NCBI GenBank assembly: GCA_026545225.1
Contig: CM048846.1
Span: 34,669,501-34,733,500, forward strand
Length of the DNA stretch: 64,000 bases
Reading direction: 5' to 3'
Source: Cornus controversa
Taxonomy: Eukaryota; Streptophyta; Magnoliopsida; Cornales; Cornaceae
Of this stretch, positions 2,306 through 46,278 are shown in pieces (positions within the stretch are counted from its first letter, which is position 1; every line of letters begins with the position of its first letter). The translations under genes were made by a program, and so were the position numbers. Under the pieces are notes generated by a model. That model saw only the letters and a list, made by a program, of their open reading frames with translations. It was not told the origin of the DNA and made no database searches.

Positions 2306-2308
2306 ACT

Positions 2309-8278: not shown

Positions 8279-8411
8279 GGCCGGGCCCGCGAAAATATAT
8301 ATATATATACATATATATTATATTTAAAATTCACAGGCCAAGATAAAGCCTAGCAAACCAGCCAAAGTATTCATAAGGCCTGACAAGCAACCCTCATGAA
8401 CAGGGGGCATC

Positions 8412-8759: not shown

Positions 8760-8764
8760 CATAC

Positions 8765-11806: not shown

Positions 11807-11828
11807 GGTACATTCTAATTTCGAGGAC

Positions 11829-11852
11829 GAAATTCTTATAAGGGTGGGAGGT
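11829..11852 (+). other. Polypurine tract of the Tekay element
   Basis: GACGAAATTC and then AAGGGTGGGAGGT directly precede the LTR start TGTAGAGA. This is the plus-strand primer site. Confidence 0.85.
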
Positions 11853-12587
11853 TGTAGAGACCGTGCCCAATTTTGGCCGGTTTTTCAAATTTTGTCATTT
11901 ATTGCTTTAAATGCATTTTAAATGATGTCTAACATGTTTTGAATGCGAGGAACATGTTTAGAGGGCTGGTATACGGTTTTGGGAAGTTTTGGGGACTTTT
12001 GACAAAAGTTGACTTTTTTGAGTTTGGTCAACCTAGGGGCGTGGGCCTTGTGGGCCCAGAAATTTTAAAAGTGTCGGAATGACTTCAAAATTTGAGGATA
12101 GCTTAAATAAAATATTTGACGCGCAACGGAGTTGATTTCGTGTCAATCTGAGTTACGGAACTCCGAAAATGAGCCCGAGAAGGTTTTGCAAAAAGGTGAT
12201 GACAAACTAGTAATTAAGAAGAGGTCTCTTAGCTATAAATACTAAGAGAGATCAGCTCTTCTCTCACTTTCATCCCAGCAGCCGAGAGAGAGAGATATAT
12301 ATACATATATACGTACAAGCTTCATCTCCTCTTCTTCACTAGATTTGAGGGCCTTAGAGTGATATTTTGATTTCACCGAAGAAGGAAGAAACGATCTACG
12401 CGTCGAGGGCTCGAGATTGATCGGTTCAAAAATCATTTCAGAGGAAGTTGGGTTTTGAGAGATTGGGGGAAATTAATTGGAAGCTCTTCCAATTTGAGGT
12501 AGGGGTGCTAGACTCACTTCTACTTTGATCTTGTGGTCCCTTCCTAAATATCATAAGAGATAGTTTTTGATTTCTTGAACCTAGGTC

Positions 12588-12630
<43 letters not shown>

Positions 12631-13088
12631 ACCATGGTGATTTATGCATGTATAAGATAATGCCTTTGGTGAAAAAAATGTGTTTGTTTGATGAAAACAT
12701 GAAAAATATGATTTTCTAGCAAAATCCATGAGCATAGTGATTTTCATGATGTGAGTGTGATAGCATTGTGACAATCTTGAGTTGGAAGGAAAATGCATTG
12801 ATTTGATGAAAAATGCATGCATTGTGTGACTATGTGCATTGGAGTGATTATATGCACTATATGATGATTTTGGGGCATGAGTGTGAAATTAAGATAAGGG
12901 GAAGGCCCCTAGGGTGAAAGACCCAAAAATTGGCCAAGAGTAGGTGCTCCCTTCGGGTTAGTAACCCGATAAAGCACAAGTAGAGTTTGGGTGCCGAAGA
13001 GACCCTTACTATTGGAGTGATGAGAAAGCCCCATTTGGATTGATTTGGTGTGAGTTATATATATATAAGTTGTGACTTGTCCAATTTG

Positions 13089-13120
<32 letters not shown>

Positions 13121-14568
13121 TTGCACTTTATGTGAAGCATCATGCATGATTTGAAAATATGAATGTTTGGGTAAAAATGCATGAGCATGTGCATTCATGC
13201 ATGGCTTACGGGTTAGAGTGGGGATGGGTGGATTATTTCTACTGAGCCGTTGAGATGCTCACCCCATTATATAAACATTTTCAGATAAGGCGCCAATGGA
13301 AGACGAAGCATGATTAGCTCTATGGATATGTTGAGCTTATTTTTGGACTTTTGCTCTTTTGAGATGTAGATAAATGTCCTTGCCAGCTTGTGGCATGTGG
13401 ACAATGATTGTGGTGTTGCCTTTACATTTGTATCCTCTTATGTATGTGAAATTCAAATGTAAGTGCCACACTTGTAGGAAAGTGATTTTTGAGAAGTGTA
13501 TGTATAATGGCTTCCTTATTTGAGACTTGTTGAATGTATGCAAAAAGGGCCATTCAAATTCTTATATGTATGGTTCTATGGATTATGTATGGATTTGGGA
13601 TTTAAATGGATGAATGTATTCTTTTGTCTCTTGTATCTTAATTTCGTGGATATGAATGTTTAGAGTTGCGGATTTATGTTGGAATCATGGTTGTAGGATC
13701 TCAATGTATAAGTTAGATTATATGGTTGGGTTAATGAAGATCACCTTTGAAAAAAAAAAAAATGAGGATGTTTGGTTCACTTGAATTTTTTTGTGCATGG
13801 TGGACTTTGGATGATTTTCCTATGACTATACAAGATTTGAGATTCAAATGTGTAGGTTGATGTGTGAGTATGATATTATATCATTGGGGGATGATTTGTA
13901 TGAGATATGAATGATCTAAGGTGGTTTGGTTGAGATTTGGGTTCAAATTGATCTTTTATAGGTGTTTGGGAAAAGCTGGACAGTGCATTTCGATTAATCG
14001 AAATGCCCATTTCGATTAATCGAAATGGTTGCGAGATTTTATGATTTTTCAGGTTTAATTTCGATTAATCGAAGTCCCAATCTCGATTGATCGAAATATT
14101 GCAGGTCCAAGTTACCGAGAGGCTGTTTTCTTCGGTTAAAGGGGTCAAAATCTCGATTAATCGAGATGAATCTCGATTGATCGAGATTACTATTCACAGC
14201 AAGGTTCAAAAATTGTCTAGACTTCGTTTCGATGTAATTTCTTCGTTTTAAATCGGAATTGAGCGTGGTTTTTTTTGAAATTGAGTATTTTTGAAAGCTC
14301 TATCCAATGGTATAGGTTTCATAATCAAATTCCATCTGTGTAAAAAGTTGAGGTCCAGAACTTAGTGGTTTATATGTATGGAACCAAATGTGAAAATCAT
14401 TTGCAAGGGCCTTTGATGATCTAATGCCACTTGAAGGGTGTGCATATAGAATGCTTCCACAATAGAAATGATTATAATGAGATTAAGGTGTGGGAACTTG
14501 AGGTGAAATTACGGATTCACCCCCGTTTCCCTTGCTCCTAACCGGGTGTCAAAAACTGGGGCGTGACA
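11853..14568 (+). repeat. 3' LTR of the Tekay-type element (2716 bp, complete)
   Basis: The LTR begins TGTAGAGACC and ends GGGGCGTGACA. A TATA box TATAAATA lies at 12234-12241 with a CT-rich start region just downstream. TA runs occur at about 12594-12626 and 13089-13116. Six near-palindromes of the TCGATTGATCGA/TCGATTAATCGA type lie between 13987 and 14188, against eight in the left LTR. Confidence 0.93.
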
Positions 14569-17194
14569 AAGTTACTAGATGCGGGAATCATTTACCCCAT
14601 CTCAGATAGCAAGTGGGTTAGTCCCACTCAAGTGGTTCCAAAAAAGTCCGATATTACGGTGCAACCAAATGATAATGGTGAATTAAGTCCCCAACGCACC
14701 ACCACGGGATGGAGAGTGTGCATAGATTATCGAAAATTAAATTCAGCCACTCGGAAAGATCACTTCCCCCTCCCATTTGTTGATCAAATATTGGAGAGAT
14801 TAGCCGGACAAAGTTTTTATTGCTTTGCAGATGGATATTCCGGCTATAATCAGGTTGCTATAGACCTGAGGGACCAAGAGAAAACCACCTTTACATGTCC
14901 TTTAGGCACCTTTGCTTATAGATGCATGCCCTTTGGGTTGTGCAATGCACCGGCGACTTTTCAACGGTGTATGATGTCTATCTTTTCAGACATGGTGGAA
15001 AAATTCTTGGAAGTGTTCATGGATGATTTTTCCATTTTTGGGCCTTCATTTGAATCATGTCTCCAAAATCTATCCCGTGTTCTCAAATGATGTCAAGAGA
15101 CCAACCTGATTCTTAGTTGGGAAAAGAGCCATTTTATGGTTCAAGAGGGTATTGTCCTAGGGCACATTGTGTCCAAGAGAGGAATCGAGGTTGATAAAGC
15201 CAAGGTTGAACTCATTTCCAAACTTAGTCCACCATCAATGGTGAGAGAGGTTTGTTCATTCCTTGGGCATGCGGGTTTTTATCGCCATTTCATCAAAAAC
15301 TTTAGCAAGATCTCCTAGCCTTTGTGCCACCTTCTTGAAAAAGAATCTTGCTTTACCTTTGATGAAGCGTGCCTTAGCGCTTTTGAAAAACTCCGCACCA
15401 TGCTCACAACCGCTCCAATTCTTATCCCTCCAAATTGGGCTCTCCCATTTGAGATCATGTGTGATGCATCTGATTATGTCATGGGTGCGGTCTTAGGGCA
15501 ACGAGTAGACAAATTGCCACATGTCATCTACTACGCAAGTAAAACCCTTTCTGAGGCTCAAATCAATTATACCACAACGGAAAAGCAGTTGCTTGCGGTA
15601 GTATTTGCCTTGGACAAATTTCAAGCTTATTTATTAGGTTCCAAGGTCATTGTCTATTCGGACCATGCTGCCCTCCGACATCTTTTGGCCAAAAAGGACA
15701 CCAAGCCTAGGTTGATCTGATGGATACTCTTGTTGCAAGAGTTCAATTTTGAGATTAGAGACAAAAAGGGAACTGAAAATGTGGTGGCTGACCACTTTTC
15801 TAGAATTCTTGTTGAATCCTTCCATAACTCCATTCCAGTTTGTGAATCCTTCCCGGATGAACAACTCTTTGTCATTTCTCAAGAGAGTATCCCTTGGTAT
15901 GCGAACATTGTCAACTACTTGGCAACCGGTAAAATACCATCTTCTTAGACCAAGCAAGAGAATGATCGTTTTCTCTCCCAATCACGATCATATTATTGGG
16001 ACGATCCTCAATTGTTCAAATATTGCCCGATCAAATAATTTGGAAGTGTGTACCCAACAGTGAATTCAAAAGCATTCTCAAATTTTGTCATACACTCGCT
16101 TGTGGGGGACACTTTAGTGCTAAGAAAATCGCAGCAAAAATTCTTCAATGCGGATTTTTCTGGCCGACACTTCATCGGGATGCATATTCATTCTGCCGCT
16201 CTTGTGAGCGATGTCAGCGCCTTGGCGCGATGTCTCGGAAGGACATGATGCCTGTTAACCCTATTCTTATTATTGAGATATTTGATGTGTGGGGCATTGA
16301 CTTCATGGGACCTTTTCCACCCTCTACTAGTCATGAGTACATACTTGTGGCGGTGGACTACGTATCTAAATGGATAGAGGCCGTTGCTACCAAAACCAAT
16401 GATCACGCAGTCGTGGTTAAGTTCATTCAAGCTAATATCTTTAGCCGGTTTGGTACGCCTCGACCATCATCAGTGACGGAGGTAAACATTTCTGTAATCG
16501 GTTCCTTCGAACCTTGCTTACCAAATACTCTGTCACACACAAAATAGCCACCCCATACCATCCTCAAACTAGTGGCCAAGTAGAGGTATCCAATAGGGAG
16601 ATTAAGAACATTCTTGAGAAGACCGTTCGGCCTGACAGGAAAGATTGGTCCTTGCGACTAAATGATGCATTATGGGCATACCGAATCGCGTATAAGACTC
16701 CCATTGGAATGTCACCTTACCGGTTGGTTTATGGCAAAGCGTGCCATCTTTCGGTTGAATTGGAGCATAAAGCTATGTGCGCCACCAAAACTTTCAATTT
16801 TGACATGCAAACGGCCGGATCTAATCGAAAGCTTCAATTAAATGAATTGGAAGAATTACGACATGATGCGTATGAGAATGCAAAAATCTATAAGGCAAAG
16901 TCTAAAGCCTTTCATGATCGTAATATCCGAGTCAAAATGTTTTCTCCGGCCCAAAAAGTATGGTTGTACAACTCACGCCTCCATTTGTTTCCTGGAAAAC
17001 TTCACTCCCGTTGGGATGGTCCATTTTTGGTTAATTTCGTCGCTCCCCAAGGAGCGGTGGAATTGAAGGACTTGAAAGATGGATCGTTGTTCAAAGTAAA
17101 TGGGCAGCGCTTAAAAGTGTGCGTGGATGACCAAGTTACCACCGAATACGTGGATGTCGTCACTTTGACGGATCCTGTATATTTTGACTCATGA
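14569..17194 (+). pseudogene. pol: Athila-1 pol: RT, RNase H, integrase (stops and frameshifts)
   Basis: The frame enters at the insertion junction with KLLDAGIIYPISDSKWVSP, a motif near the start of Athila RT. The catalytic FMDD is at 15016-15027. In-frame stops lie at about 15088, 15316, 15718 and 15946. A base is lost near 16029 and a second frameshift lies near 16463. RNase H spans about 15450-15810. The integrase HHCC site lies at about 16087-16230, followed by the core with GIDFMGPFP and [16 protein letters not shown], and an [14 protein letters not shown] box in the C-terminal part. The last segment (16514-17194) is open for 226 codons. There is no chromodomain, as expected for Athila. 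Confidence 0.9.
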
Positions 17195-17366
17195 GCCGAT
17201 TCGGACGTCATGCCATAGACGTGTAAGGTGGCGCGGCCATGGTAGCTATCATGCTTCCATGACGTCCCTTTAATCCAAGGTAAGTTTTGTATCTAAGCAA
17301 TTTAGTATCTAAGTCCCATAAGTCCAAGTCCATGAAGCATAACTTAAGCTGGCTGTTTTTGAGCAT

Positions 17367-17735
17367 CTCGATTGATCGAACCAAGATCTTGATCAATCGA
17401 GATTTCGATTGATCGAGATTTTGGTCTCGATTGATCGAAATAATGCAGAGAGTTTGCGAAGTCCAAAGTCCCGAGAGGTAGTATTCTTCGATAGCACTTC
17501 GATAGGTCCTCGATCGATCAAAATTTCGATTGATCGAAAGGGGATCTCGATTGATCGAAGTGAATTTTTGATTGATCGAGGAAGGAATCTCGATTGATCG
17601 AGGAAGGAATTTTGATTGATCGAAGTTAATTTTGATTGATCGAAGCTGATCTCGATTGATCAAAGTAGGATTTTGATTAATCGAAATCTCGATTGATCGA
17701 GATGCACATCTCGATCAATCGAGATTGACGCGATG
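17367..17735 (+). repeat. Array of TCGATTGATCGA near-palindromes in the Athila-1 3' region
   Basis: About 15 copies of [T/C]T[T/C]GATTGATCGA(A/G) and close variants occur in 370 bp, spaced irregularly by about 17-40 bp. The same motif recurs in the Tekay LTRs and in the Athila-1 LTR. Confidence 0.8.
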
Positions 17736-17750
17736 CCTGCACGTGAGCCG

Positions 17751-18403
17751 ATTACTTATTTAAACCGTTGGGCTTCCCTCTTATTTCCACATTTCTTCCT
17801 CAGACCATCCGATTTCCTCCTTTTCTCCGAACGATCCAGGGCTTCCCCAAGCACCATCCTGTACTTGATCTACCATCCCCGACCATCCATCGCCGTTCGT
17901 CGTAGTCCGAGATCTCTGCGAGCACACTCACGCTCATCTCTTCACGGCTGCAAGTTGGGTCTTCATTTTTTTATGCCAATCATCATCTTCACCTTGAGGT
18001 AAGTGATGCATGGCTATATTTTGCTTCCTTTCTCGCTATTTTTATTAGTTTCTCGGCATAATAAGCATAGGCCGGTGATGTTGGGTGGAATGGTGCATTT
18101 GCTATGTTCATAGTGGGATTTTGCGGATTTCGGGGGGGGGTAGGAATACATGTATGGGTGAGATATTGCATTATTCTTGCTTCGAATGCTTAATGTACGG
18201 TTTGTAACTGCGGCCCTTTCATTTTAATTGCATCCATTTACGCTGCCTCGTTGAGAGTGAATTTTTGAATTCATGTGTCAGCACCATGGACTAGGACCTC
18301 ATTTTAATTTTTATTCTTTTATTTTTATTCTTAGTTTAGCTTTCCTCTTATTGTCTTTTTATTTACGTAATTTTTGGAATAAAATGCAGACTGCTCCGAG
18401 ATC
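17751..18403 (+). promoter_or_regulatory. Putative promoter, leader and intron of the Athila-1 third ORF
   Basis: A TATA-like TTATTTAAACC lies at about 17756-17766, followed by a pyrimidine-rich leader. A good 5' splice site (GAG|GTAAGTG) starts an intron at 17999, and AAATGCAG ends it at 18389. The ORF3 ATG is 14 nt beyond, at 18404. The 391-nt intron is inferred from splice-site consensus only. It would allow a spliced or separately initiated mRNA for ORF3. Confidence 0.45.
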
Positions 18404-19564
18404 ATGGCGAGGGTGAAGAATGCCCCCGGTGCTATTAGAGATGTGCTTGAGCGAGCCTTCCGATCTCGAAAGTTTCACTCGGAGCAGATATTTGACCTGA
18501 GAGAGTTCGAGACGCGTCCCGACAGCTCGTGGGCTGTAGTAGAGCTCAGGCGATGTCGCCTTGACTGGTTATGTGTGCCTCCCACTGATGTGGCACACGA
18601 GCGCTTGGTGCAGGCCTTTTACGAGCATATGACTTACTCCTGCACCACGCCGGACACTTTGGAGACGATAGTGGGTGACACGACTATCACTATCACTCCG
18701 AGTCGGATTGCGCAGATGTTCGGCATCCCTCACTAGCAGCCTCTAGATATGGTTGACCAGGACGGTCGACCGATTTACAGGGCCGAGCTGCCAGCAGACA
18801 CGATGCTATTCTCCATCGTGATGGACATGTGTGGCAGGGCGTTTACCATGCCCAGTTACAACTGCACGTCCAAATCGATGTACCCGAGTAGATTGTGGTT
18901 CCTGGACACCGTTCTCATCAAGAACGCGTGTCTTCTGTAGCATGTGGCAGAGCGCAGAGGCGACCTCCTCCATTGCCTTTACGCTTTCCACACGGGCACG
19001 TGGTTTTCTGTCCCATCGCTAATATGGGGCAGATGTTCAAGATCTGGGATGACCTCGTCAACAAGAGGATGCGGCGAGTAGCGTGTTGGCGTCTTCCTTT
19101 TTCATTCCTGGTCGTAGTTTTTCTCAGTCGTACCAGTATACCGATCAGTGATACTGACATTCAGTTGGCACCGCCCACCCGCTTCACATCTACTCAGTGG
19201 GAGAGGGTGAGGCGACACTTAGAGCGACAGGACCACCAGGGCGATCCACCAGAGGATGTAGATATAGATGCCCCAGTGGAGATGGATAAGGGAGAGCCTG
19301 TAGAGGGTGAGTCAGATGATGAGGAGATGGAGGAGGATGAGATGGAAATTGCTGCAGAGCGGCATGACATCCTGGCGATGGGCTACTCCTGCCTGGCAGC
19401 TGACGTAGAGCGGCTCCAGCAGGATTTTGAGGAGCACGTCTAGGTGACGCAGAGTCAGCTGGAGGGCATTCGGACAGACATTTCATCTCTAGCACAGGGT
19501 CAGAGGGCAATTTTAGACGAGTTCCAGGCCTTCCGACAGGACCTGCAGTTCCTGTTTGCAGGAT
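18404..19564 (+). pseudogene. Athila-1 third ORF (position of the env-like gene), broken
   Basis: The coding region is AT-poor compared with its surroundings and starts at MARVKNAPGAIRDVLERAF. TAG stops occur at 18734-18736 and 18938-18940. A frameshift lies near 19020, and a further TAG at 19441-19443. The middle part (about 18880-19130), with FLDTVLIKNACLL and VAERRGDLLHCLYAFHTG, resembles an uncharacterised protein commonly found downstream of Athila pol in plants. It then has a hydrophobic stretch, an acidic D/E-rich segment (about 19240-19360) and a C-terminal helix likely to form a coiled coil. The env-like label rests on position; I see no clear fusion protein hallmarks, so function is unknown. 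Confidence 0.6.
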
Positions 19565-19846
19565 GAGCTTCCACCTCCACCTCTACTCCCACCGAGCCAC
19601 CACCACCACCACCCGCCCTAGAGTAGCTCTATCTATTTGCACTTTCTGCTTTACTTTCTGTATTTTTCTTTCTTTATTTTTGATAGGCCATGTTTTTTTT
19701 TTTTTTTTGTGTATTCCACCTCCATGTACCCTTTGTACTGAAACTTATGTTCACATATATGGAATACAGTTCTCTTTTCTTTTATACCATGTGTTATATC
19801 TTCTGTCTTTATTTTTACTTTCTGCCCATATCTCTACTCTCTATAC

Positions 19847-20050
19847 TTTGACTATGTAGGTAGTACCACTTGCCTAATTGTTATATGCGATTCAGTTGAT
19901 GATTTCTGTTTATTACCGCCTGGTTTAAATTTCCAATACTGTTGAGATTGCTTCAACGCAGTATTGCGTTAATAAAGAAAGGCAGCCCCTTTGCATGCTA
20001 TACGTTAGCGTGCCTGGATAGTCAATATCTTATCGCATAGACTTCTTAGT
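19847..20050 (+). ncRNA. Conserved structured segment in the Athila-1 3' region
   Basis: Closely similar to 25994-26200 in Athila-2, although the flanking non-coding sequence is not similar. It contains a stem AATACTG/CAGTATT with inner TTGA/TCAA, the string AATAAAGAAAGGCA, and a hairpin GCATGCTA-TACGT-TAGCGTGC. It is probably a cis-acting RNA element of the retrotransposon rather than an independent RNA gene. Confidence 0.5.
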
Positions 20051-20288
20051 CAATTGGGAAACACCAGTTCAGAGTCTTGGATGTGCATTGATCTCGGCCT
20101 TATCCGCTTGTCCATAATTCTTTTATTATGTTCTTTTTATCTACTTTTTGTTCCATTTAATGCTCGTGGTATCTAGTTGGTGTTCCGTGCAGGTTTTTCT
20201 CATTTCCAGGATAACCGACCGTATTGGAATGCTATTTTTGTCGCGTTCTATAGTCTCGGTAAATTCTTTCCTTGTTCTTCTTGTCCAA

Positions 20289-20322
20289 ACATTGAGGACA
20301 ATGTTATGTCTAAGTTTGGGGG
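20289..20322 (+). other. Internal hairpin plus polypurine-like module (Athila-1)
   Basis: ACATTGAGGACAATGT (6-bp stem, 4-nt loop) is followed by AAGTTTGGGGGT. It repeats the layout of the terminal PPT module at 21379-21415. Confidence 0.6.
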
Positions 20323-21378
20323 TGCGGTATGCTATACCACTTGCATATGCATGCAATGTTCAGTCTTTATATTGATTGTCATTGTAGAGCAAGTTTCTTT
20401 TCTTGATATTTTTGCATACTTGCTATGATGTCTTGCTTTTTAAAGGAAGATCATTCGAGTAAATGTCCGAGGTAAATGTAGCAGGTAGTTAAGAACTTTA
20501 ACATTGTAAATACCCGCACTTTTGCAAGCTTTATAATAGGCTAGAACGGTCTACATTTTTGTCCAAAAATGAGCACGTAGAGTTCTTGCCCTAAATTTGT
20601 CCTTAACCGCACAAATTCGCACACATGCATTTTAAATTGTGGGGGTATAAGTCTGATGGAGAATTTTGTAAATTTCTGTTTTTATCTGAACAACTTAAAG
20701 AATAAGTTCTTCCGGTTGTTGTAAAAAAAAAAATATTATAAAATAAATGCAATAAGTCTTCTCACTCAATAAACTAGATTTCTATGCCTCAAAGCAGGGA
20801 GTATTCGCGTATAAGTGTGCAAGGTTGAGCAATAATAAGCGTGTGGCTTGCTTAAGTTCATCACCTTGTAAACTCGGTTATTAAGTCTGAGGGGTGTTTC
20901 TTCACCTAATGCCCTAAAACCAATTGGTTTGGGAGTCATTGGCCCAATGTCGCTACATGGGCTTACAAGAAAGCAAAAAGAGCTAAGCATTGCACGGTCA
21001 TCCGCACATGAGCAATCATGAATGTTTTGTGATAATGAACAACTGTGTCGAGTGTTTTCAATAAGTTTTTCTTTTAAAAGCAGATTTGTTTTTATTCTTC
21101 TCCAAATATGACAAAATCACGCGCTAGAATGCATGTTCACTTTTCAAAGAGGATTTTGGGGTCGAAATTGGTATGTTTGTTCAGACTGGCCATTATGTGG
21201 GGACCGTCGTTTATTTATAGCTTGTGAAAGTCCATTTTTGCTAATGACCGCATAGTTCTGTAATACTTGTTGCATTTGCCAAAAGTGAAATGAACGGATG
21301 ATCGCCCTTTATCTAGTTGATGACTGAGCATGAGTAAATTTTTGTATAAGATAGTTAATTTCATTTTTGTAATATTGC
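20323..21378. other. Athila-1 3' non-coding spacer
   Basis: AT-rich, with no supported gene. A further purine-like AAATTGTGGGGGTATAAG lies at about 20634 and a poly-A run near 20722. Confidence 0.6.
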
Positions 21379-21415
21379 ATTGCTAAGGGACTAGCAATAT
21401 GTAAGTTTGGGGGTG
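21379..21415 (+). other. Terminal hairpin and polypurine tract of Athila-1
   Basis: ATTGCTA-AGGGAC-TAGCAAT (7-bp stem) at 21379-21398 is followed by AAGTTTGGGGGTG, directly before the LTR start TGATAAG. Confidence 0.75.
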
Positions 21416-22801
21416 TGATAAGTGTTCAATTTTATGCATTTGAACCCTCTTTATTGCATATGTTAGTCCCGTTTCTACGTTTACCAAGATATGTTTACGG
21501 TATTTTTGTGTTTTTGATGTATTGCAGGTCTTGTAGTGAAAGGAGCAAAATTTGAGGCTTTTTACAACTGAAGAGAAAAGTCAGAATTGCAGCCAAGGCA
21601 TCTCGATCAATCGAGATGTTGATCTCGATCAATCGAGATCTCGATTGATTGAAATCCAATCTCGATTGATCAAGATTCTGCAGAAGCCACTTGCTCACTT
21701 GCTCACCTACTCTCCCACTTGCAACAAAATCCCCATTTTTTTGCACGACTTAGGGGGATTGTCTGACTTGAACAAGACCCTTGGGGACCTTCTTGATATA
21801 ATGGATATATATATTGATATGTATATATATATATGGTGGGCCCCAAAGTTGGAAAAAGGTAGCCATAAAGTACAAAAGAAGCCATTTCTCACATATCTCT
21901 CACACACATCAGAATATAGAAGGAGAGACATTCGGGAGAGGAGAAGAAGGAGCTGAACCAGACCTTGAAGCTCCATTTTCTTCATCAATGGAAGAGTGCA
22001 AGGCAGCCATGAGCAACTAACTTCTCTACTAGGGTGTTGGTGAAACCCCTAGCCATGTAAACTTGTTCATTTTTGTAGCATGTTGGGATTTGTAATTAAA
22101 TATTGATTATCTAATCTAGTGACAATGTACACTTATACATTTCTTTTATATATTCATGTGATTTTGGTTTTATTCTTGTCTTAGAGTATAATCTTTCATG
22201 TGAATGCACAACATTTGCATCTTCCACAAGAAGTGCAAATGATGGCTAGGTAATGGTACTTTAAATGAATGTGTAGTGTTTGCTTGTATAAACCATGCCA
22301 AGATGAGGTAGTTTGGATGCATGTAGGTTCACTTAGAGAGTAGGGTAATTAGGTAGTTAGTTAGGTTGAAGAGCTATGCTTGTTGAAGATGGATTATGAT
22401 AGGTTAGCACACACATTAATCTTTTGATATGTCATTGAGGTTACAAGCCTAATGACATTGTTAGGCATTTAATTTATGAATCCCATGCTTGCTACACTTA
22501 TGAACATGTGAATGGCTAGTGGTGGAAACCACCCCTAGTTCTCTCTCCCATCCTTTACTCTTTAATTTTATTGTTATTACATTCATGCAATAGTTTTATA
22601 AACAAAAACTCAAAACCCTGTTTTTAGTATTAAAGTGGAATTAATCTTTCTTTAAGACAATTACGACTAGTCCTCGTGGGATCGATACCCTCTATATAGA
22701 ACCGTATCTACAAAGATTCGTGCTCTTGCGAGTGGTTAAATTATATTTTGATAAAAAGAGAAAAATTAAGCTTTCAATATAATTCAAGTCCAACCACATC
22801 A
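21416..22801 (+). repeat. 3' LTR of Athila-1
   Basis: It starts TGATAAGTGTTC after the PPT. Near its end it has the Athila-typical GTGGGATCGATACC and ACAAAGATTCGTGCTCTTGC. The CA at 22801 is chosen because Athila-2 RT sequence begins immediately after it (TAATG would be the right TSD copy). Four TCGATTGATCGA-type motifs lie at about 21602-21672. Confidence 0.78.
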
Positions 22802-25050
22802 TAATGCACCTACAACATTTCAAAGGTGTATGATGTCTATTTTTTCGGACATGGTGGAAAATTTTCTTGAAGTTTTTATGGATGACTTTTCAGTCTTTGG
22901 ACCTTCTTTTGAAAACTGTCTCCAAAATTTGTCAATTGTTCTTCAGCGTTGTAAAGAGACAAATTTAATCTGGAGTTGGGAGAAGTGTCATTTCATGGTA
23001 AAAGAAGGAATAGTATTAGGACACATTGTGTCAGAAAGAGGAATTGAAGTAGATAGAGCTAAGGTTGAACTCATTTCTAATCTTCCACCATCTACATCGA
23101 TGAGGTAAATTAGATCATTCCTTGGACATGCAGGATTTTATCGTCAATTTATCAAAGGCTTTAGTAAGATAGCTAAACCATTGTGCAATTTACTTGCCAA
23201 AGATACTCCTTTCAACTTTGATAAAACATGTCTTGAAGCTTTTGAAAAGCTCTATTCTCTTCTAGCCTCTACCCCGATTATGAAACCTCCTGATTGGTCT
23301 TTACCATTTGAGATCGTGTGTGATGCATCCGAATATGCTATGGGAGCTATCCTAGGACAACGTGTAGATAAACTTTCGCATGCTATCTACTATGCTAGTA
23401 AAACCCTCTCAGATGCTCAGTTAAATTATACCACAACTGAGAAGGAATTACTGGCTGTCGTGTTTGCCTTGGATAAATTTCGATCATATCTGTTAGGATC
23501 CAAGGTAGTTGTGTATTCTGATCATGCTGCTCTAAAGCACTTGCTAGCCAAGAAAGAAATCAAGCCCGTTTGATTAGATGGATACTCTTGCTTCAAGAGT
23601 TTGATTTTGAAATACGAGACAAGAAAGGTTCTGAAAATGTAGTAGCCGATCATCTTTCTCGTATTATCATTAAATCATTTGATTCCATCCCAGTTCATGA
23701 TTCCTTTCCTAATGAGCAACTATTGAGAATTACTGATGAGAAAGTACCTTAGTTTGTTAACATTGTGAATTATTTAGCAATATATAGGTAAAATTCCTTT
23801 GAATTGGACCAAGCAAGAAAAAGATCGATTCATTTCCCAAATAAGGAGGTATTTCTGGGATGATCCTGAATTATTCAAATACTGTCTGGACCAAATAATC
23901 CGTCGTTGTGTCCTTGAAAGTGAGTTTCAAAGTATTCTTACTTTTTGTCACACCTTAGCATGTAGAGGACATTTCAGTGCTAAAAAGACCTCTTAAAAGG
24001 TTTTACAAAGTGGATTCTTTTGGCCATCACTATTTCAGGATTCTTATAATTTTTGTCGAGCTTGTGAGCGATGTCAGAAATTAGGATCAATGTCTAGGAA
24101 AGACACGATGCCTTTAAATCCCATTTTAATCATTGAAATCTTTGATGTATGGGGTATAGATTTCATGGGACGATTTCCACCATCATTTGGATGTGAGTAC
24201 ATACTATTGGCCGTAGATTATGTATCTAAATGGATTGAAGCAGTTGCCACCAAATCGATTGATCACAAAGTTGTGATTAAGTTTATTAAAACTAACATTT
24301 TTATTCGTTTTGGTACACCGAGAGCAATAATAAGTGATGGAGGTAAACATTTTTGTAATAGATTTCTTCAAACCTTGCTCATCAAATACTCTGTCACTCA
24401 TAAAATAGCTACACCTTACCATCCTCAGACAAGTGGACAAGTTGAAGTATCTAATAGAGAAATAAAGCATATTCTTGAAAAAACGGTTAGGCCGGACAGA
24501 AAAGATGGGTCTTTAAGACTAAATGATGCACTTTGGGCGTATTGAACTGCTTTCAAAACTCCATTTGGAATGACCCCTTACCATCTTATTTAAGGGAAAG
24601 CTTGCCATCTCCTAGTTGAATTAGAACACAACGCTCTTTGGGCCATTAAGAAATTCAATTTTGACATGAAATTGGCTGGCTCAACCTCGAAACTCCAACT
24701 GAATGAACTTGAAGAGATGAGAATGATGCTTATGAAAGTGCCAAAATTTATAAGCTAAAATGAAGGCATTTCATGATAAAAATATTGTGAATAAAACATT
24801 TGTTCCAGGTCAGAAAGTTTGGTTGTTCAATTTTAGATTAAACCTCTTTCCTGGAAAGCTTCGTTCATGTTGGGATGGTCCTTTCATAATTTCATCTATT
24901 TTTCCCTATGGAACTTTGGAACTTCAAGATCCAAATAATGATAATGTTTTCAAGGTCAATGGTCAAAGATTGAAGCTCTATGTAGAAGATAATACGCAAG
25001 CAAAAGATGTTGAATCCATTAACTTGACGAATCCTGTTTATTTTGACTAG
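22802..25050 (+). pseudogene. pol: Athila-2 pol: partial RT, RNase H, integrase (heavily decayed)
   Basis: It enters within RT and reaches FMDDFSVFG at about 22880. The frame is broken by a TAA near 23106 and a frameshift near 23570. A TAG near 23750, a further shift near 23785 and a TAA near 23994 follow. Stops near 24543 and 24591 and a shift near 24750 complete the damage. RNase H shows the CDASEYAMGAILGQR motif near 23318. The integrase core has [18 protein letters not shown] and [16 protein letters not shown]. The last segment (24760-25050) carries the LFPGKLRSCWDGPF box and ends like Athila-1 pol (NPVYFD). The number of breaks contrasts with the uninterrupted LBD ORF downstream. Confidence 0.9.
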
Positions 25051-25650: not shown

Positions 25651-25993
25651 TCTCTCTGAAACCTGTCTCGGATTGCAACCATTGAGCGATTATGGCCGAC
25701 CATTCATGGTTTATTACTATACTCCTCGTTCTTACCAGGATTGTGCTCAGTTGTATGGAAAAGATCCACCTCGATAGGAAGATCCTAACTTGGGATGATA
25801 TGTATTCCTATCATTACTTAGGATCAAGTTTGGGGGTAACTCATTTACTTTTGTCATTCGTGTTCACCTTTTCTTATGTATCTTTCTTTTGTTTTGAAAT
25901 TTTTGATTTTGTGTTAATGTCTATTCTGAAATTCTTACCTTCTTTTCTAAAAAAAAAAACATAGAATTCATAACGGTCTAGCATAGCTACCCA
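25651..25993. other. Athila-2 spacer with a polypurine-like motif
   Basis: Non-coding. GATCAAGTTTGGGGGTAAC at about 25813 is an internal PPT-like copy. Confidence 0.45.
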
Positions 25994-26200
25994 TTCTCTG
26001 ACTATGTATGTAGTACCACTTCTATAATTTATGATATGATTGATAAAGTTGATGATTTCCGTTTATTAAAGTATGGTTTCAATACCCAGTACTGTCGAGA
26101 TTACCTCAACACAGTATGACTTTAATAAAGAAAGGCAACCCCTTTATACTCTATACGTTAGTGTGTCTGGATAATCAATATCTTATCACATACACATTTT
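25994..26200 (+). ncRNA. Conserved structured segment in the Athila-2 3' region
   Basis: Counterpart of 19847-20050. It keeps GACTATGTATGTAGTACCAC, TTAATAAAGAAAGGCA and CTGGATAATCAATATCTTAT. The distal hairpin keeps its TACGT loop while several stem pairs change. Confidence 0.5.
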
Positions 26201-26372
26201 AGAAAATTCAGAACCACCAGTTCAGAGAATGAGAGAAAAGTAGTACCCGTAGTTTTCACGTAAAGAATAAGTTAAAAAGAAAAAAATTGAGCGTGAAATT
26301 TTTCATAAATAATTCAAAAAGCCAGCAATACATATGCTATTGATTTTAATACTGACTTTCAATAGACTGACA

Positions 26373-26917
26373 TTAATTTTGTTTTGAATGAAAAAAAGAA
26401 GGATTTCTCTCGACAATAGCTATAAGTCTCCCATGATTCTCCTGAATCCGATCACCGAAACTCTGTAGCTCATCCAGCTTCGTCTTCATTTCATTAGAAT
26501 ACTCAGTTACAAACTTTTGTAACTATTTATTCTCTGCTTTCAATTTTCTATTTTTTTTCTAAGACTCCTTAATTTTTCTCTGAAGAACTTTAACATTAGT
26601 TGTTAGCATCTAAACTTCATTCATTCTAGGAAACTAACGTTGGCCCATGTTTGAAACAGAGGCAACCGACCTAATGCTGAGAATCGAAGAGTCGTCAATG
26701 GCCATAATGTCAGACCTATTTGCCAAAACTCTTTTATCTTGAGGAGTCAGTAAATTTTTAGCTGCTCTCGTAGTGGCTGTATCATTAAACATCACGGATT
26801 CCTCCACTAGGTGAGGGTCAATAGAGGATAGGAATGTTGTCTGCCCAACATTGGTTGATGGCACCTCAGGCAAAACATTTAAAACGAAGTGACTTTTTGA
26901 AAAAAAGAGGAAGCCAT
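26373..26917 (-). pseudogene. Antisense ORF relic with coiled-coil end (Athila-2)
   Basis: Read on the minus strand, it starts at an ATG at 26917 (MASSFFQKV) and needs one frameshift near the N-terminus. It then stays in one frame to a TAA at 26373-26375, interrupted by four TAG codons only. The distal part, with EYSNEMKTKLDELQSFGDRI, is a likely coiled coil. Additional antisense ORFs are known in some Tat/Athila-type elements; this may be a decayed example. Exclusive use of TAG as the breaking codon fits C-to-T decay of CAG or TGG codons. It is divergent from the LBD ORF with 362 bp between the two start codons. Confidence 0.5.
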
Positions 26918-27279
26918 TTTTGAGAGCTTGTGATGAAGAAGATAGATAGATACAACAATGTTACAATATTAAAAAAATCTGCTCTTCAAATACATAAAAA
27001 TTTTGCTCACCAATCACGCATCTCGGATTTCAAAATCTGATTTGAATTTTAACTCAATCTATGCTTTTAGAGTTGTGATAGGTAATTTTGTCAAACATAG
27101 ATGGCTTGTTTGCCAACGACAGTATTAAATGTGTGGTTGCATGTTTGGAATGTGTGCAATACAGGTACAATGCATGTATGAAAAACTCTTTTACCACAAA
27201 AGTGAGAAGAATCAGTTTGATTAAAAAATTTGAATGAGTAAGTGTTAGCAATTTGTGTTTCTTCTTCGTGTTATCCAAA

Positions 27280-27861
27280 ATGTCTAAAACTACTTATGGT
27301 GTTTGCAAATTCTTGAGAAACAAATGTGATAAGTATTGCATTTGTGCTCCTTATTTTTGCCATAAAGATAGTATAGGCACTTTTGCTGCCATCCATAAAA
27401 TTTTTGGGTATAGCAACTTCTCAAAACTCCTTGCTCATCTCCCTATAGAACATCGAGCTACAGCTGTTCTAACTATGGCATATAAAGCTCAAGGTAGGCT
27501 TCACAATCCCATTTTTGGTTGCGTTTCATATATTCTTTCTCTTGAATGGCAAATTCTCAGTCTACAAGCACAACTGGTTTCTCTCAGTCACCTAGCAGCT
27601 CAAAACTTTGCTTCTAGCTCCTCCAGTGTAAACCCTAATGATATTTTTGAAGGAAACTTTTCATCACATCCACCAGATAATCATGTTCAAAGCTGGGTTC
27701 CATCTGAAAATGTGGACATGACACCACTATTGAATCAGGACTTATTCAACAATTTTGACACCATGTCTTATTGTCAAAATCAGTTTATGGATCCAAACAT
27801 TTTACAAGATGATGGTGATGAGCTCCAATCAATTGTTTCTTCCTATCTACGTCATTCATAA
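27280..27861 (+). CDS. LOB-domain (LBD) transcription-factor-like protein inside Athila-2
   Basis: An uninterrupted 193-codon frame begins MSKTTYGVCKFLRNKC. It carries the whole LOB domain, about residues 5-105. The C block is CX6CX3C, but its first cysteine is replaced by tyrosine (residue 6; TAT, one transition from TGT). IHKIFGYSNFSKLL matches the GAS block and NPIFGCVS the DP-G region. The leucine-rich helix ILSLEWQILSLQAQL matches the zipper-like end. The closest type by motif is class I (LBD16/17/29-like), nuclear DNA-binding regulators. The tail (about 85 residues) is S/N/D rich and ends near DDGDELQSIVSSYL. There is no intron in the frame. It sits between Athila-2 pol and the 3' LTR, on the element's sense strand. 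The upstream ATG-less extension to 27253 is not needed. The lost cysteine may weaken zinc binding. Confidence 0.85.
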   Translation: MSKTTYGVCKFLRNKCDKYCICAPYFCHKDSIGTFAAIHKIFGYSNFSKLLAHLPIEHRATAVLTMAYKAQGRLHNPIFGCVSYILSLEWQILSLQAQLVSLSHLAAQNFASSSSSVNPNDIFEGNFSSHPPDNHVQSWVPSENVDMTPLLNQDLFNNFDTMSYCQNQFMDPNILQDDGDELQSIVSSYLRHS

Positions 27862-28114
27862 ATTAAGCAACATGTTCATACTTTAGATGAATGATGAAAT
27901 CTTGATTTTTTGTTCTTAACTTATTTTGGATGTTCAGATTGATTTTGTTTAGTTGGCTTGGTTGGTATGTATTGTGTTCTTCATAACAGGTTCTTGTATC
28001 CAAGTTTGGGGGGATGGCTAACCCTTATTCACATGGATGCTTAACTAGATTTTGATATTTCTACCACCACGGTAAAATTGTTCTATCACTTACCATATGC
28101 TTTATGTCTTTGTT

Positions 28115-28152
28115 ACACATTGAGGACAATGTGTGATATAAGTTTGGGGGTA
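28115..28152 (+). other. Internal hairpin plus polypurine-like module (Athila-2)
   Basis: ACACATTGAGGACAATGTGT (8-bp stem, 4-nt loop) at 28115-28134 is followed by AAGTTTGGGGGTAAGG. Another PPT-like CAAGTTTGGGGGGATGG lies at about 28001, just after the LBD 3' flank. Confidence 0.6.
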
Positions 28153-29661
28153 AGGAAGAACAATTTTGTGTTGTTATGAAAAAGAAAAATAAAAATAAAA
28201 AATATTGGTAATTTTTACACTATGATTTGATTTTTCGATATTCAATGTGTAAATAATTTTTAAAAATCTTGAAGCTTTAGTGTATTTTATAGATTTTATC
28301 CTATCTTTTAATTAGAATAAATTTCATAAATTTTAAAACTCAGAACAATATTATTCATGATAGCCCTTCGATATAATTTGAAATTGATGAGTGACTACAT
28401 GTTAAAAATCAGAAGAATAAAAGTGGAGATTTAACCTAGTGAGCTTTTGTGATATTCTTATTATTTTGAGGGTTAAAAGGTTAAATTCTAAAATTTTCAT
28501 TGAGTTCGCATAATTTGTTGATCGAGTCTCATTATTTTTCTTTTGGTCAAATATTGGGAATTTTATGCCACATTATCTTTTGAGTTCACACTTGTTGAAG
28601 AATTATACTAATCCTTGAGAAATGATTTTAGGCCATCTTTGGATATTTTTGAGCCTTTAAATTTCTTTTCTTGGTAATGCAATACCACTAGTTAACCCAT
28701 CGAGCTTTAGCTAACCTTCCTTTCACAACCCTTTTATAAAAGTGTTTCGGAAACGATTTAATCAATAGATATCAAAAGAGCAAGCGAGAATCAAAAAGAA
28801 AAGAAAAATAGAAAAAGAAAAGTGAAGAAAAGAAGGTATGAGATTGCTAAAGAAAATTCTAAAGAAGTGTATACAAAAAGAATTGATTGACAAAAGTAAG
28901 AAGATACTGAATGCAATGTGCTCTAAGGAATTGGTTTATCCCAAGCATCATGGAATACGCATTTTAATATCACCATCACCTTGTTATCCTCCTTTTACCT
29001 AATATTACATCCTAGTAAAACCCCTATTTGATCTCAAGGATGGTGTGGTTCTAAAACAGTCATGACTGAGCTATACTATTGTGGTATAAATTCTTAACGT
29101 TTGATATCCCTTGCATGAGACTACATGTTCCTTCATGTATTTGCAGTTCTTCATATGAATCATATGTGAGATAATTTGCGCTTGTTTACATTATTCTTCT
29201 CATATATACTTGAGTGAAAAATTAGTCAATCTCTGAGTACTTTATTTTGAGTGAAATATCATATGTGAGATTTGAGATCAAAGCTAATTTTCTAAAGAAA
29301 TCTGGACTGCATTTGCTTTTAATTTGAGAATTATATTTTCAGGGCATATTAACACACACACTCTGAGTTAATAATAGTAATGAAATTTTCTAACTTTTGG
29401 ATAGTATTGAATCTTTCAACCTTTATTACACACTGAAGTGGATTGATTAAAGTATTCTTACCAGTTACACATTAAATGGAAAATTTTTTATTGAGTGTAG
29501 TTACCATCACTTGATGTTTGTGGGTAACATATCTGTTAAACCCTCACAAGACCTCACTCGTCCACTAGGGATGCATAGGAGTTTAAAAGGCTTGTTGCAT
29601 TTGCTAAATGCAATCGTATTTCCCACGAAAGAGGAAAGTTGTTTTATTTTTCTTGTTGTGT
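28153..29661. other. Athila-2 3' non-coding spacer
   Basis: AT-rich, without a supported gene. It includes an A/G-rich stretch at about 28775-28835 and no similarity I could see to the Athila-1 spacer until the terminal hairpin. Confidence 0.6.
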
Positions 29662-29698
29662 ATTGCTAAGGGACTAGCAATATATAAGTTTGGGGGTG
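29662..29698 (+). other. Terminal hairpin and polypurine tract of Athila-2
   Basis: ATTGCTA-AGGGAC-TAGCAAT followed by AAGTTTGGGGGTG, the same arrangement as in Athila-1, directly before TGATAAGC. Confidence 0.75.
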
Positions 29699-31239
29699 TG
29701 ATAAGCACAGAATGTTGTGCATTCGGTCCTTCTAATTTACATATGTTAATCCTTTAATTATGTTTATATTAGTATTTTTATAGCATTTTGTCATTTTCAG
29801 ATCCTTAGATGAAATAATGCTTAATTCCATGCTTCTTGGGCTTTCAGTGAGGCTTCCATAAGAAGAAGAAATTGCCATTAGTTTGGGCCAACTTCCAATG
29901 ATGAGTCCATGGATTGGGCCAAGCTATATTGAAGATTTAATGCAAAAGGGGCCAAAAATCTGAATTTGTTCATTCATTAGGTCAAGTACAAGTTCAAGAC
30001 TAATCTCAAGCCCAAAATTCGTTCAAAATTCTGATCTGCGCACTGTTTATATTTTGACCATAACTTCATGCTCCAAACTCCAATTAAAGAGATTTTTGTG
30101 GCTGTGGAAAGATAAAAGAGAGTTCTAAATACGTTTAGTTTTGAGAAATCTCTAAATATGACATCTTGGTGTTTGAAAGTGGCCAAAATAGTAGCATAAA
30201 TATTCTGGGCAGATTTTTCTTTGGTTGCTTTGAAAATTTGTGACAAGTGACCAATGATATGACAAGCAACCACCCCACTCAATTAATTCACCAAAGTGAT
30301 ATATACATGGAGGGAGATGATCCAATTCTTCTAAAATGGAATATATATAGAGCTATTTAGGCCATAGGATGAGTTTTAGTGGAAGAAATGGTGGACACTC
30401 ATATTGCACTAACTTTGGCTATAAATGGAGGGGAATTGAGTAGTGTAAGAGGAGGGAAGTGAGTGAAAATATTCTGCACATATAGAGAAATATGAAGTGT
30501 TCTCCAACCATGAAGACTTGTAAGTTAGCCATGAGGAGCTAAAACTCTTCCTAGGGCATTGATGTAGCCCTAGCCAAGCATCAATGGTATGATAATAGTA
30601 TCTTAATTTGGGATTGTTATATGTGTATAATAAGTTGTATAACTTTGAAGATTACATTTGTAATTGAAGTCTAAAGTTATGTTCAATCTTGACTTCATTC
30701 TTCTCTTGTCTTAGAAAGTATGAAAGTTATACAATAATTTTATATGAACATAAATTCATTAGATTTGATAATTCATGCTTAAGGAAGATGAATCGTTCTA
30801 CACTTTTAATTTCATGTTATGTCTTTTATTTAAGTAGTTAGGTAGACGATTCATGCTAACTAGAGATGAATTATTCTTATCTTTTAATTTATGCATTTTC
30901 TTGAAGATATCATGGTGGTATGTGACAAATTCCATGAATCATGATTATACATATGTAACTTTTCCAAGTTGAATTACATTCTTCCATTGAGGAGAGGCTA
31001 GTGGTGAAATCAATACCCTAGTCCATCTTTTATTTATCAATTTAAATTATAACTAGTGCCATTTATTTTATATTAAACAAATACCAAAAATATCAACCTC
31101 TCTTTCAATGAATCAAATGAGACTAATTTAATCACATTCTCTGTGGGATCGACACCTTCACAAGAGCCCTATCTTACAAAGATTCGTGCTATTGCGAGTG
31201 GTTTATTAAGAATTGGACAAGAATTATTTTGGTATAACA
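29699..31239 (+). repeat. 3' LTR of Athila-2
   Basis: It begins TGATAAGCACAG. A TATA box (TATAAATG) lies at about 30420-30427. The end has GTGGGATCGACACC and ACAAAGATTCGTGCTATTGC as in Athila-1. The end is set at the CA of GGTATAACA, with an uncertainty of some tens of bases. Confidence 0.72.
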
Positions 31240-39572: not shown

Positions 39573-42500
39573 TGTCACGCCCCGATTCCCGAGGCCCGAA
39601 AACCGAGGTGTGAACCCCGTGAGATCACCCTCACGACATAACCTCCACCTGATCATACAATTCAATTTTCTATTATTTTTACGAAAATTGGGCATGACCC
39701 ATTCTAAATAATCAGCTCTTGGCATATTACACCTGCTTTACAATTCATATGGACACTTCTGGGCACGTGTCCCCCCAATATTTCTACAACATGCATAAAC
39801 AATCATAAATATACATGCCTCAGTCCTTGAATGTCCGTATTAAATACATACATCACATGAATAAATACAACTGAAGGAACTGAATCTACGTAATCACCTC
39901 ATACATTTAATCCAAATGTAATACATCTATCTATCCAAAATCCTGAACATAAATTAGATTCTAAGGAATCTAATTACTACCTCTGTAACTGGTGCTATCA
40001 GTTTCCCCAACTGACTCCAAAACCAGCAACACCTGCAAAACCTGGGAGGGGGTGAGCTCAAAGGCCCAACAAGGTATGTAGAACCATACTATCACTGCTG
40101 CAGCAGGTCGATCCTCACATATTCTCAAAAATATACTTATGCACTTAAATATATCACAATATTTAAGACCATGCCCCACCTAGCATGCATGAACCAATGA
40201 TGTATATGGCTACTCTAGCACATATGAACATACAAAATCCACTATACATGATTTTAGAAATCATTTTCAACATGCTTGAGAACAGTAAACATTTCCGCAC
40301 CAATATGTATAAAGAACATATATGTCTATTTACATAAAACAATGTAAATCAATCATCACGTCCCCTACCCGACAAGTAGCAATCCCAAATGCAATGAAGA
40401 TGCATTTAAACCATACAACATGCGCAAAAGCAATAGATATCCAACATATATCATGTTCTGTCACAAACAACGCATATATAAGAATGCGTTAAACACAAAG
40501 CATGCTTCACAATCGATAATGTAAGCAAGTTCACACACTTGTCTCTCTCTCGGGCTCAACCCGATATCCTAACATGATTCTCAACCAATCATGTGACCTG
40601 GAACGCCTCCCACAACCATCTCACGACCTTGACCTACTCCGCCAACGTCATACTTCCGGGGCAATATTTTGGTTTGCCCATTGGTGATTAGACCATATCA
40701 GCACCGTCACCAATTAATTATCTACTCAAGGTGATTAGACCATATCAGCACCGTCACCGAGTATTGGGTAACTCGAAGTGGTTAGACCATATCAGCACCG
40801 CCACTGAGCTTATTTTGACTCAAGATGATTAGACCATATCAGCACCGTCACCGAGTCTTAGATGGTTCAAGGTGGTTAGACCATATCAGCACCGCCACCG
40901 AGTATCTACCTACTCCAAGGTGGATAGACCACTGTCACCGAGTATTTACCTACTCCAAGGTGACGTAACCGCTCCAACGCCCTCACCGTGACCGAGTATT
41001 GACCTACTCTGGGTGATTTGCCTACTTTATGACCACAACCATACCCGAGTATTAACCTACTCTAGGTAATTCAACCACACTTCCCCGTTTCCTCACAACG
41101 GCCCCATATATGCATTTCGAACATATAACTACCGAACATTCAATGTTCATGTCTCACAATGCCTAAGCTAGTTAAAAGGGCATAGCATGCATTTCATATA
41201 TCAACCCATGCCTATGAATACTAAAAAGAAGTATTTAGCATGCTTCTCATCACATTCCAACATATATAGCACATACATGTTCAAAACCCGCATAGTACCT
41301 CACATATGCAAAACACTTCAACTTTAGCACATTTTTATCATGCTTCACCCATGCATACATTCTCTATATATAGATAGCATCATTTCATTCATGTAATCCC
41401 ACATGTAGTCACGTACATGTCAAATCATGCATATAATTCACATATGTACATGCATTAGCATAAATATAGTCATACTCTCATTCAATGCATACATTCATCA
41501 CGAGTGTCTAACATTCATTCTAATCACCATATATATATTAATATATATATATTGCATCACCTACACACGTATTATGCACATATATGACACTTAGCATAAC
41601 CATGCTTCTCAAATGTTCATTGAGGCTATAATCATATTTAGCATGCATCTCTACCATTTTCCAATATATAATCACATACATATTCCAATCCATGCATAAA
41701 ATCCACCTATGCATAAGCAATAACACATAGCCAAACATAAAATAATTTAGCATGTTTGACATGGGCTCAATCTACACCTATAAATATCACAATGTTCACA
41801 AGCATTAAAATCTAGCATGCTTCAATATCCCAATTATATATATATATATACCCATATATATATATACCCATATATATATATACTATAACAACACTTATAT
41901 ATATATATATATAAGCACCTATATATATATATATAAATACCACATATGAACAATTAAGAGAACATATGTAAAATTAACGACGTATTTAAAATATATACGT
42001 AGGAGATAGAGGCAAGAATCAACTTGCCTTAGGTCCCGCGTTTACTGTGCCCTCGCCGGCAAGGCGGTCCATCTCCAAGTCCCGGTCCAGTCCTGTGTCG
42101 AAGCCCACACGAACAAATCCACTGGACCATTTTCCTTTCCTTTTCCATCTCCACGCTTAACCCAATCTTTAATTCAATTGGTGACCAAAACCCAATTTCA
42201 CAAAGCCCCATTTCCATGATCAATAAGGCATCCATACTTCATAATTTAAGCCCAAATGATCTCAAGTAAGCCCAATATGACAGCCCACTTTAATTTCAAA
42301 ACCATATATACCATCATCTCTTAACAACTCACAACCTCTGTAATTACCTTGAACTATGCCCCAGCAAACCACCGTGCACAAAATCCAACCCCAAACAAAC
42401 ATCACGTAGCTATTATAACTGTCGCAACCAAGCTGTGCACTCGGCCAATGAAGACCCGAGACCACCAAAAATTTAAACTCCAAAATCAAGCCACACCAAA

Positions 42501-46262: not shown

Positions 46263-46263
46263 A

Positions 46264-46275
46264 GCTCTGATACCA
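46264..46275 (-). other. Primer-binding site of the LARD
   Basis: Plus strand GCTCTGATACCA, i.e. TGGTATCAGAGC on the minus strand, three bases from the 5' LTR. Confidence 0.9.
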
Positions 46276-46278
46276 TTC

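Follow-up and report, generated by a model that had tools for sequence, protein, structure and literature searches.

In Cornus controversa, a dogwood of the order Cornales, a 64,000-nucleotide stretch of contig CM048846.1 (assembly GCA_026545225.1, positions 34,669,501 to 34,733,500 of the forward strand; here called the window, from whose first letter all coordinates are counted) contains an intact open reading frame (ORF) for a homologue of the LBD transcription factors, embedded in the remains of an Athila-like long terminal repeat (LTR) retrotransposon, E2. By its sequence, this ORF is an LBD29-type coding sequence from Cornales that has been copied, has changed fast with its frame open and now sits in Athila-like DNA. 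A neighbouring Athila-like element, E1, serves as the reference for comparison. The features that carry the argument are the following (PPT, polypurine tract; RT, reverse transcriptase):

27280 to 27861, plus strand: intact LBD29-like ORF of 193 codons, zinc ligand C1 changed to Tyr (Pfam, PDB, alignment and fold model)
27253 to 27279, plus strand: leader preceding the ATG; when its reading is shifted by one base, it is similar to the N-terminal extension of the related protein P0002 (F-L-L-R, then I and K)
26228 to 28116, plus strand: stretch of E2 that replaces about 215 bp of E1 and contains the LBD ORF (E1/E2 alignment; insert edges uncertain)
26637 to 26960, minus strand: 108-codon stop-free stretch just before the LBD ORF, coding-like by eye (89 residues scanned, no Pfam match)
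22796 to 25050, plus strand: pol of the carrier E2, covering RT from its middle onward, RNase H and integrase, and disrupted by stops and one or more frame changes (BLAST alignment from 22803; left edge by eye)
25993 to 26227, plus strand: conserved non-coding segment, upstream anchor of E2 (80% identical to E1 19843-20074, E = 1e-52)
28002 to 28012, plus strand: PPT-like AAGTTTGGGGG, 140 bases past the LBD stop codon (exact motif)
28117 to 28151, plus strand: ACATTGAGGACAATG...AAGTTTGGGGG block, downstream anchor of E2 (equivalent to E1 20289-20323, 35 columns, E = 2e-4)
29686 to 29696, plus strand: PPT of E2, AAGTTTGGGGG, with the LTR directly after it (TGTGATAAG, start 29697 or 29699)
14570 to 22795 (limits approximate), plus strand: E1 (pol, ORFs, PPT and LTR start)

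An LBD homologue lacking one zinc ligand

The ORF runs from an ATG at 27280 to a stop codon at 27859-27861, uninterrupted by an intron, exactly where a preliminary description of this DNA, made from the letters alone, had placed its 193 codons. Between pol and the PPT, no stop-free stretch is longer than the 207 codons that hold it; since the runner-up, on the opposite strand, reaches only 108 codons, the LBD ORF is not a chance ORF. The LOB-domain identity given in the same description is borne out for the encoded protein, P0001, at the level of both sequence and fold: LOB (PF03195) is the sole Pfam family found (E = 5.6e-27, profile positions 4-97 of 99), and the Ramosa2 LOB domain, 5LY0, is the sole PDB-sequence match (E = 2.6e-21). 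In an AlphaFold2 model built from a 47-protein alignment (mean predicted local distance difference test score, pLDDT, 66), the blocks of residues 21-110 reach pLDDT values of 75-96. Confidence is low at both ends: residues 1-20, into which the cysteine block largely falls, score 44-53, and a large part of the C-terminal tail stays below 50. Foldseek matches this model to both 5LY0 chains (E = 1.1e-6, template modelling score 0.64-0.65 by target length), which are its sole fold matches at E up to 0.001.

The C block, GAS block and leucine helix that had been read into the ORF are present, the first two in altered form. Three cysteines of the C-x2-C-x6-C-x3-C block (C9, C16 and C20) and the coiled-coil leucines L88, L95, L99 and L102 are kept, but the first cysteine is replaced by Tyr-6, a substitution already pointed out in the preliminary description, and the GAS block reads F-G-Y-S-N, with Tyr in place of the alanine. 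The closest relative found, P0002, shares this Tyr in the GAS block and has Ser-Ala instead of the Cys-Val of the G-C-V stretch at 81-82, yet retains all four cysteines of the block. With its first zinc Cys gone, P0001 is best described as an LBD homologue by descent and not as a complete LBD zinc finger. When compared by eye with P0002 as protein rather than DNA, the leader at 27253-27279 looks like a homologous untranslated leader that differs from P0002 by a one-base indel.

An Athila-like carrier

The pieces of E2 pol match RVT_1, RT_RNaseH and rve in Ty3 order, and E1 adds Integrase_H2C2, which places both elements in the Ty3/gypsy group. Their layout is that of Athila elements, with no chromodomain after the integrase and a long 3' region before the PPT (4.6 kb from pol to PPT in E2). 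No Pfam match was obtained for a post-integrase ORF in E1 (up to E = 1) or E2 (up to E = 0.001), and the Athila ORF-1 domain PF03078 was not matched by the E1 ORFs 18404-18736 and 18895-19443; this absence weighs little because it is common in the Athila lineage, where only 16% of elements have the domain (PMC6317226). The name Athila-like follows the preliminary description together with the element layout.

E2 and E1 are 72% identical over 2.25 kb of pol. The layout of E1 comprises long ORFs at the env-like position (18404-19443), the conserved segment, a PPT at 21403-21413 and an LTR start at about 21414. On this template, the LBD ORF has element-type anchors on either side and lies on the same strand as the E2 pol pieces, i.e. 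on the sense strand between pol and PPT/LTR, as originally proposed; it is the 3' half of E2 that falls within the window. The PPT/LTR start of E2 (29634-29797) aligns with that of E1 (E = 9e-24), and the boundary previously set at 29698/29699 agrees with the PPT-like motif and LTR start listed above. This region and the upstream non-coding segment are the firmer anchors, because the block at 28117-28151 is short and belongs to a repeated type, of which another example matches the PPT region at 67%. No 3' edge is claimed for the insert, because the 215 bp of E1, when compared with the sequence after the LBD stop, give a convincing alignment for the last 35 bases only.

E2 begins in mid-RT right after the 3' LTR region of E1, and another Ty3 element has its 3' LTR immediately before the start of the RT of E1. 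The plain reading of these junctions, which were located by eye, is nesting, with E1 inserted in the RT of E2 and the third element inserted in E1. This order would make E2 the oldest of the three, its 5' half probably lying to the left of the window.

Two observations concern the non-coding parts of these elements. The motif AAGTTTGGGGG occurs in six exact copies in the window, all of them in E1 or E2 (at 20312, 21403, 25826, 28002, 28140 and 29686), several preceded by a short inverted repeat seen by eye; such repeated motifs may be extra second-strand priming sites. The non-coding segment is 80% conserved between E1 and E2, compared with 72% for pol, and a two-sequence fold of 19843-20074 and 25993-26227 gives 66 pairs, five of them changed on both sides. 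Such a fold, computed without a control, possibly reflects a functional RNA structure; a scan of the whole window against Rfam returned 0 matches at gathering scores.

GCGGCG is the LOB box motif, and self-regulation through LOB boxes was considered and rejected, since the first 1.6 kb past the start of the LTR and the inspected flanks of the ORF contain none; the window as a whole has four copies, with 3.4 expected.

Probable descent from an LBD29-type gene of Cornales

With P0001 as query, about 5.8 billion proteins yielded 26 matches from 74 candidates; with the P0001/P0002 alignment as query, 336 matches were obtained from 2085 candidates, and the best 120 matches underlie the scores given here. 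The best of these is P0002 itself, encoded on a contig of 936 bp and 67% identical to P0001 over 99% (443 bits). The closest named relative is P0028, an LBD29-like protein of Cornus florida (229 bits; 58% identical in the multiple alignment, 48% over 97% in BLASTP), followed in third place by a protein of Nyssa sinensis at 201 bits, a value that no other named protein exceeds. Both species belong to the Cornales, as was checked. About 37 residues are deleted from the C-terminal half of both P0001 and P0002, and the two have many derived residues in common, including an identical change at eight of 52 deeply conserved LOB columns.

In a tree of 46 proteins picked from 134 LBD proteins, P0001 and P0002 form a pair (support 100/100) that groups, together with four further Cornales proteins, against the remaining 40 (96/96), so that P0001 falls within a Cornales LBD29-type group. 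The narrower grouping of the pair with P0028 has a support of 94/37, which is weak by the second measure. The stem of the pair is long (1.09, compared with 0.12 for P0028), and from their common node P0002 (0.69) has diverged further than P0001 (0.19). Tree placement and best named matches together suggest that the donor was probably an LBD29 gene of Cornales. Compared with the LBD29/LBD16 clade of class I LBD genes (PDB relative 5LY0, Ramosa2), the protein of the window has the same LOB fold, most of the conserved residues and a recognizable LBD29-type C-terminal half, but differs by the Tyr for the first zinc cysteine and for the GAS alanine and by its deletion.

The element sequence is less informative in this respect. 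Among the best 120 of 7991 matches to the integrase piece of E1, a Cornus florida protein (69% over 97%) is outscored by an Ipomoea protein, and Malus (73% over 89%) and metagenome proteins (78% over 81%) are also present; these matches neither back nor oppose a Cornales origin. Viral contigs contained no relatives of P0001, of the P0001/P0002 alignment or of the E2 integrase piece, and phage records had none.

Preservation of the frame

An important question is whether the ORF has stayed open by chance or under constraint. Separate E1 pol pieces were aligned to E2, leaving 23574-23888 unaligned and its raw stops uncounted; in the aligned pieces, E2 pol has in-frame stops numbering one, at least one, one and two, plus at least one frame change. 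The 'at least six' lesions reported earlier are therefore a fair count. The accompanying statement that preservation of the LBD frame far exceeds that of its carrier is statistically not strong for a single copy, and the contrast between ORF and pol is weak evidence, because the damage rate of pol, 6-8 events per 2248 bp, would leave 582 bp intact by chance with a probability of 0.21-0.13.

What constraint there may have been is better seen by comparison with P0002, which aligns to all 193 columns of P0001 with no internal gap and no stop. Neutral evolution was simulated from the window ORF under three settings (1500 runs each) with substitutions only, so that frame-breaking indels would lower the values further: runs without a stop made up 1.3-5.4% at 67% identity, 0.2-2.3% at 60% and 0.4-1.7% at 54%. 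Measured against a yardstick of 132 other LBD proteins and the Ramosa2 stretch, P0001 and P0002 differ at 10 of 52 deeply conserved LOB columns and at 19 of the 45 other LOB columns (Fisher p = 0.016), as well as at 33 of 91 C-terminal columns. In this count, the first zinc Cys is grouped with the other columns, as the Ramosa2 stretch stops short of it; when it is counted as deeply conserved, the figures become 11/53 and 18/44 (p = 0.045). Departures from the family consensus in either protein are likewise rarer at deeply conserved columns (18/52 versus 33/45, p = 0.0002). Both proteins have lost strongly conserved residues, which speaks against selection. Base composition gives a further hint: the ORF contains three CpG in total (observed/expected 0.16, with 0.60 and 0.36 in the flanks), a depletion that fits long methylation without proving it, and its CHG ratio of 0.81 is not low.

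The case for selection, which rests on P0002, is thus moderate at best, and of the earlier alternative that the ORF is 'recent or under selection', the first half is not borne out, since the long shared stem of P0001 and P0002 suggests an old event instead. Taken together, weak past constraint on the ORF with normal function lost in the window copy is probably the appropriate description.

Origin of the LBD sequence in E2

The explanation that we favour, and hold to be reasonably probable, is that an LBD29-type coding sequence was picked up as cargo by an Athila-like element of a Cornales plant. Such an element would have acquired it in the non-coding stretch between pol and 3' LTR, most likely through a template switch of its reverse transcription to a co-packaged host mRNA, a process described as joining host mRNA to LTR-element RNA in the review PMC13317346. 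The captured copy would have dropped about 37 residues of its C-terminal half and then evolved several times faster than a normal LBD29, with the frame open long enough to leave at least two descendants, P0001 and P0002. At the window locus, the carrier is dead, its pol being disrupted, and younger insertions nested in it have apparently divided it. Since a zinc ligand is lost, the window copy would probably make no normal LBD factor; its product would at most be a dimerization partner impaired in DNA binding, and the ORF is more likely a decaying relic. The preliminary description had taken the missing intron as a sign of a captured transcript. The frame indeed has none, but this is no proof of an mRNA route without the donor gene; in PMC2721968, coding introns are given for 29 of 42 Arabidopsis LBD genes.

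Several findings weigh against cargo and would fit a separate insertion, in which an LBD29 retrocopy or gene fragment entered an old Athila-like copy later, by way of the machinery of long interspersed nuclear elements (LINEs), a Helitron or repair. In place of 215 bp of E1 that do not convincingly align beside the ORF, E2 carries about 1.9 kb, and the region is full of nested insertions. The same 1.9-kb stretch holds the unrelated antisense coding-like stretch at 26637-26960, which is what remains either of an ORF in antisense orientation or of a different insert, so that more than one insertion may have occurred. Only P0002 scores as a clade member among the best 120 of 336 matches (443 bits, the next having 229), which fits a low copy number rather than amplified cargo. 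The argument from selection, too, loses weight, as P0001 and P0002 both came into the comparison through having open frames. On the other hand, comparison of 26228-27279 with 27862-29698 yielded no shared word of at least 12 bases, the longest being an A-rich 11-mer, and no run of at least eight A occurs between 26001 and 29700; the lack of direct repeats and of an A tail is not decisive against an old separate insertion, as age could have erased both. The PPT-like motif of the element type only 140 bases past the stop codon also speaks against later arrival. Cargo is therefore the more likely of the two, with a separate insertion possible but on the unlikely side.

The alternative of a working host LBD paralogue, fast-evolving in a retrotransposon-rich stretch and perhaps transcribed from element sequence, could account for a frame that is open in two diverged relatives and for the relative rarity of changes at deeply conserved LOB columns (p = 0.016, or 0.045 with the first zinc Cys counted as deeply conserved). 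It appears improbable in view of the losses in P0001 (zinc ligand C1 and GAS alanine) and in P0002 (C and V of the G-C-V stretch), of the element motifs that flank the ORF on both sides, and of the fact that no named protein comes near the score of P0002 among the best 120 matches. The opposite possibility, a pure relic unconstrained since its arrival and open by luck, overlaps with both cargo and separate insertion. At the rate of damage seen in pol, such luck is not extraordinary (0.13-0.21 for the intact 582 bp), and the CpG ratio of 0.16 is that of long-methylated DNA, though it comes from three CpG only and the CHG ratio is 0.81. Equal luck would, however, have to be assumed for P0002 and for the long stem that both share (0.2-2.3% of neutral runs at 54-60% identity), with zero gaps across 193 codons, which makes complete absence of constraint doubtful.

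Relation to known captures and implications

Capture of host genes by LTR elements is known as such, and LBD cargo appears to be new. Steinbauerova et al. 2011 reportedly found LOGL4-like ORFs in two Athila-like elements. These LONELY GUY (LOGL4/YgdH) elements, said to be of Athila type, likewise carry a host regulatory coding sequence in a Ty3/gypsy element; they differ from E2 in that the putative cargo in the window is an LBD transcription factor, known from one element locus. No prior report of LBD cargo was found in the open-licence literature, a scope to which supplements and most subscription papers do not belong.

Extra ORFs are well described in plant Ty3/gypsy elements (PMC7264820, PMC6317226). 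A survey of 121 angiosperm genomes reports LTR elements with 15 unusual domains, which include YgdH (LOG family) in Citrus, B3 in Aegilops and a demethylase in Phalaenopsis (PMC9289625); the term 'lob' is absent from its main text. The Aegilops B3 and Phalaenopsis 2-ODD demethylase (Gypsy) elements have likewise gained a plant DNA-binding or enzyme domain, but the domains are others and are represented by at least five consensus sequences per species (PMC9289625). In rice and sorghum, 672 and 1,343 LTR-captured genes, respectively, are reported by Jiang and Ramachandran 2013 (PMC3726574), whose main text contains neither 'lob' nor 'athila'. Like maize Bs1 (PMC7264820), these are host genes in LTR elements, part of them under purifying selection; the rice and sorghum genes were called within full-length elements, whereas the window shows only the 3' half of E2.

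If the LBD sequence is element cargo, a developmental master regulator would join the host genes carried by plant LTR elements. Ectopic LBD16, LBD17, LBD18 or LBD29 leads to callus in Arabidopsis, LBD29-type factors being sufficient alone (PMC4033269), and a benefit of misexpressing an LBD16/29-type factor to the element would therefore be testable. That capture of a growth gene benefits the element is unlikely and yet worth a test. By analogy with the oncogene of an acutely transforming retrovirus, one may even imagine an Athila lineage in dogwood-order plants that has long carried an LBD29-derived factor as working cargo. We regard this as a very long shot; if true, it would mean, together with the LOG family elsewhere, that plant retroelements repeatedly take genes which push cells to dividing and regenerating states, from which new insertions would be heritable. 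If, by contrast, the ORF is a relic only, it would still document clearly that retroelement DNA in Cornales has taken in a host-gene copy. For gene annotators, it is a caution that significant open transcription-factor frames exist inside dead elements.

Other elements in the window

The remainder of the window contains further retroelements of different ages. Positions 1-14569 are occupied by a Ty3 element with gag, protease, RT and RNase H and with LTR-like repeats that are 94.6% identical, which is apparently nested in the RT of E1. Unlike E1 and E2, this other Ty3 element shows SH3_Tf2-1 and a weak, below-cutoff Chromo match. At 4114-8759 lies a small nested element with a gag domain, 348-bp LTRs (repeats 99% identical) and CATAC on either side; no pol was noticed in it, and a tandem-repeat array at about 6084-8274 contains long repetitive ORFs. 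A very young element is found at 39573-50444, where identical repeats of 4,168 bp (LTRs of about 4,166 bp) flank some 2.5 kb and are bordered by a GAATC target-site duplication.
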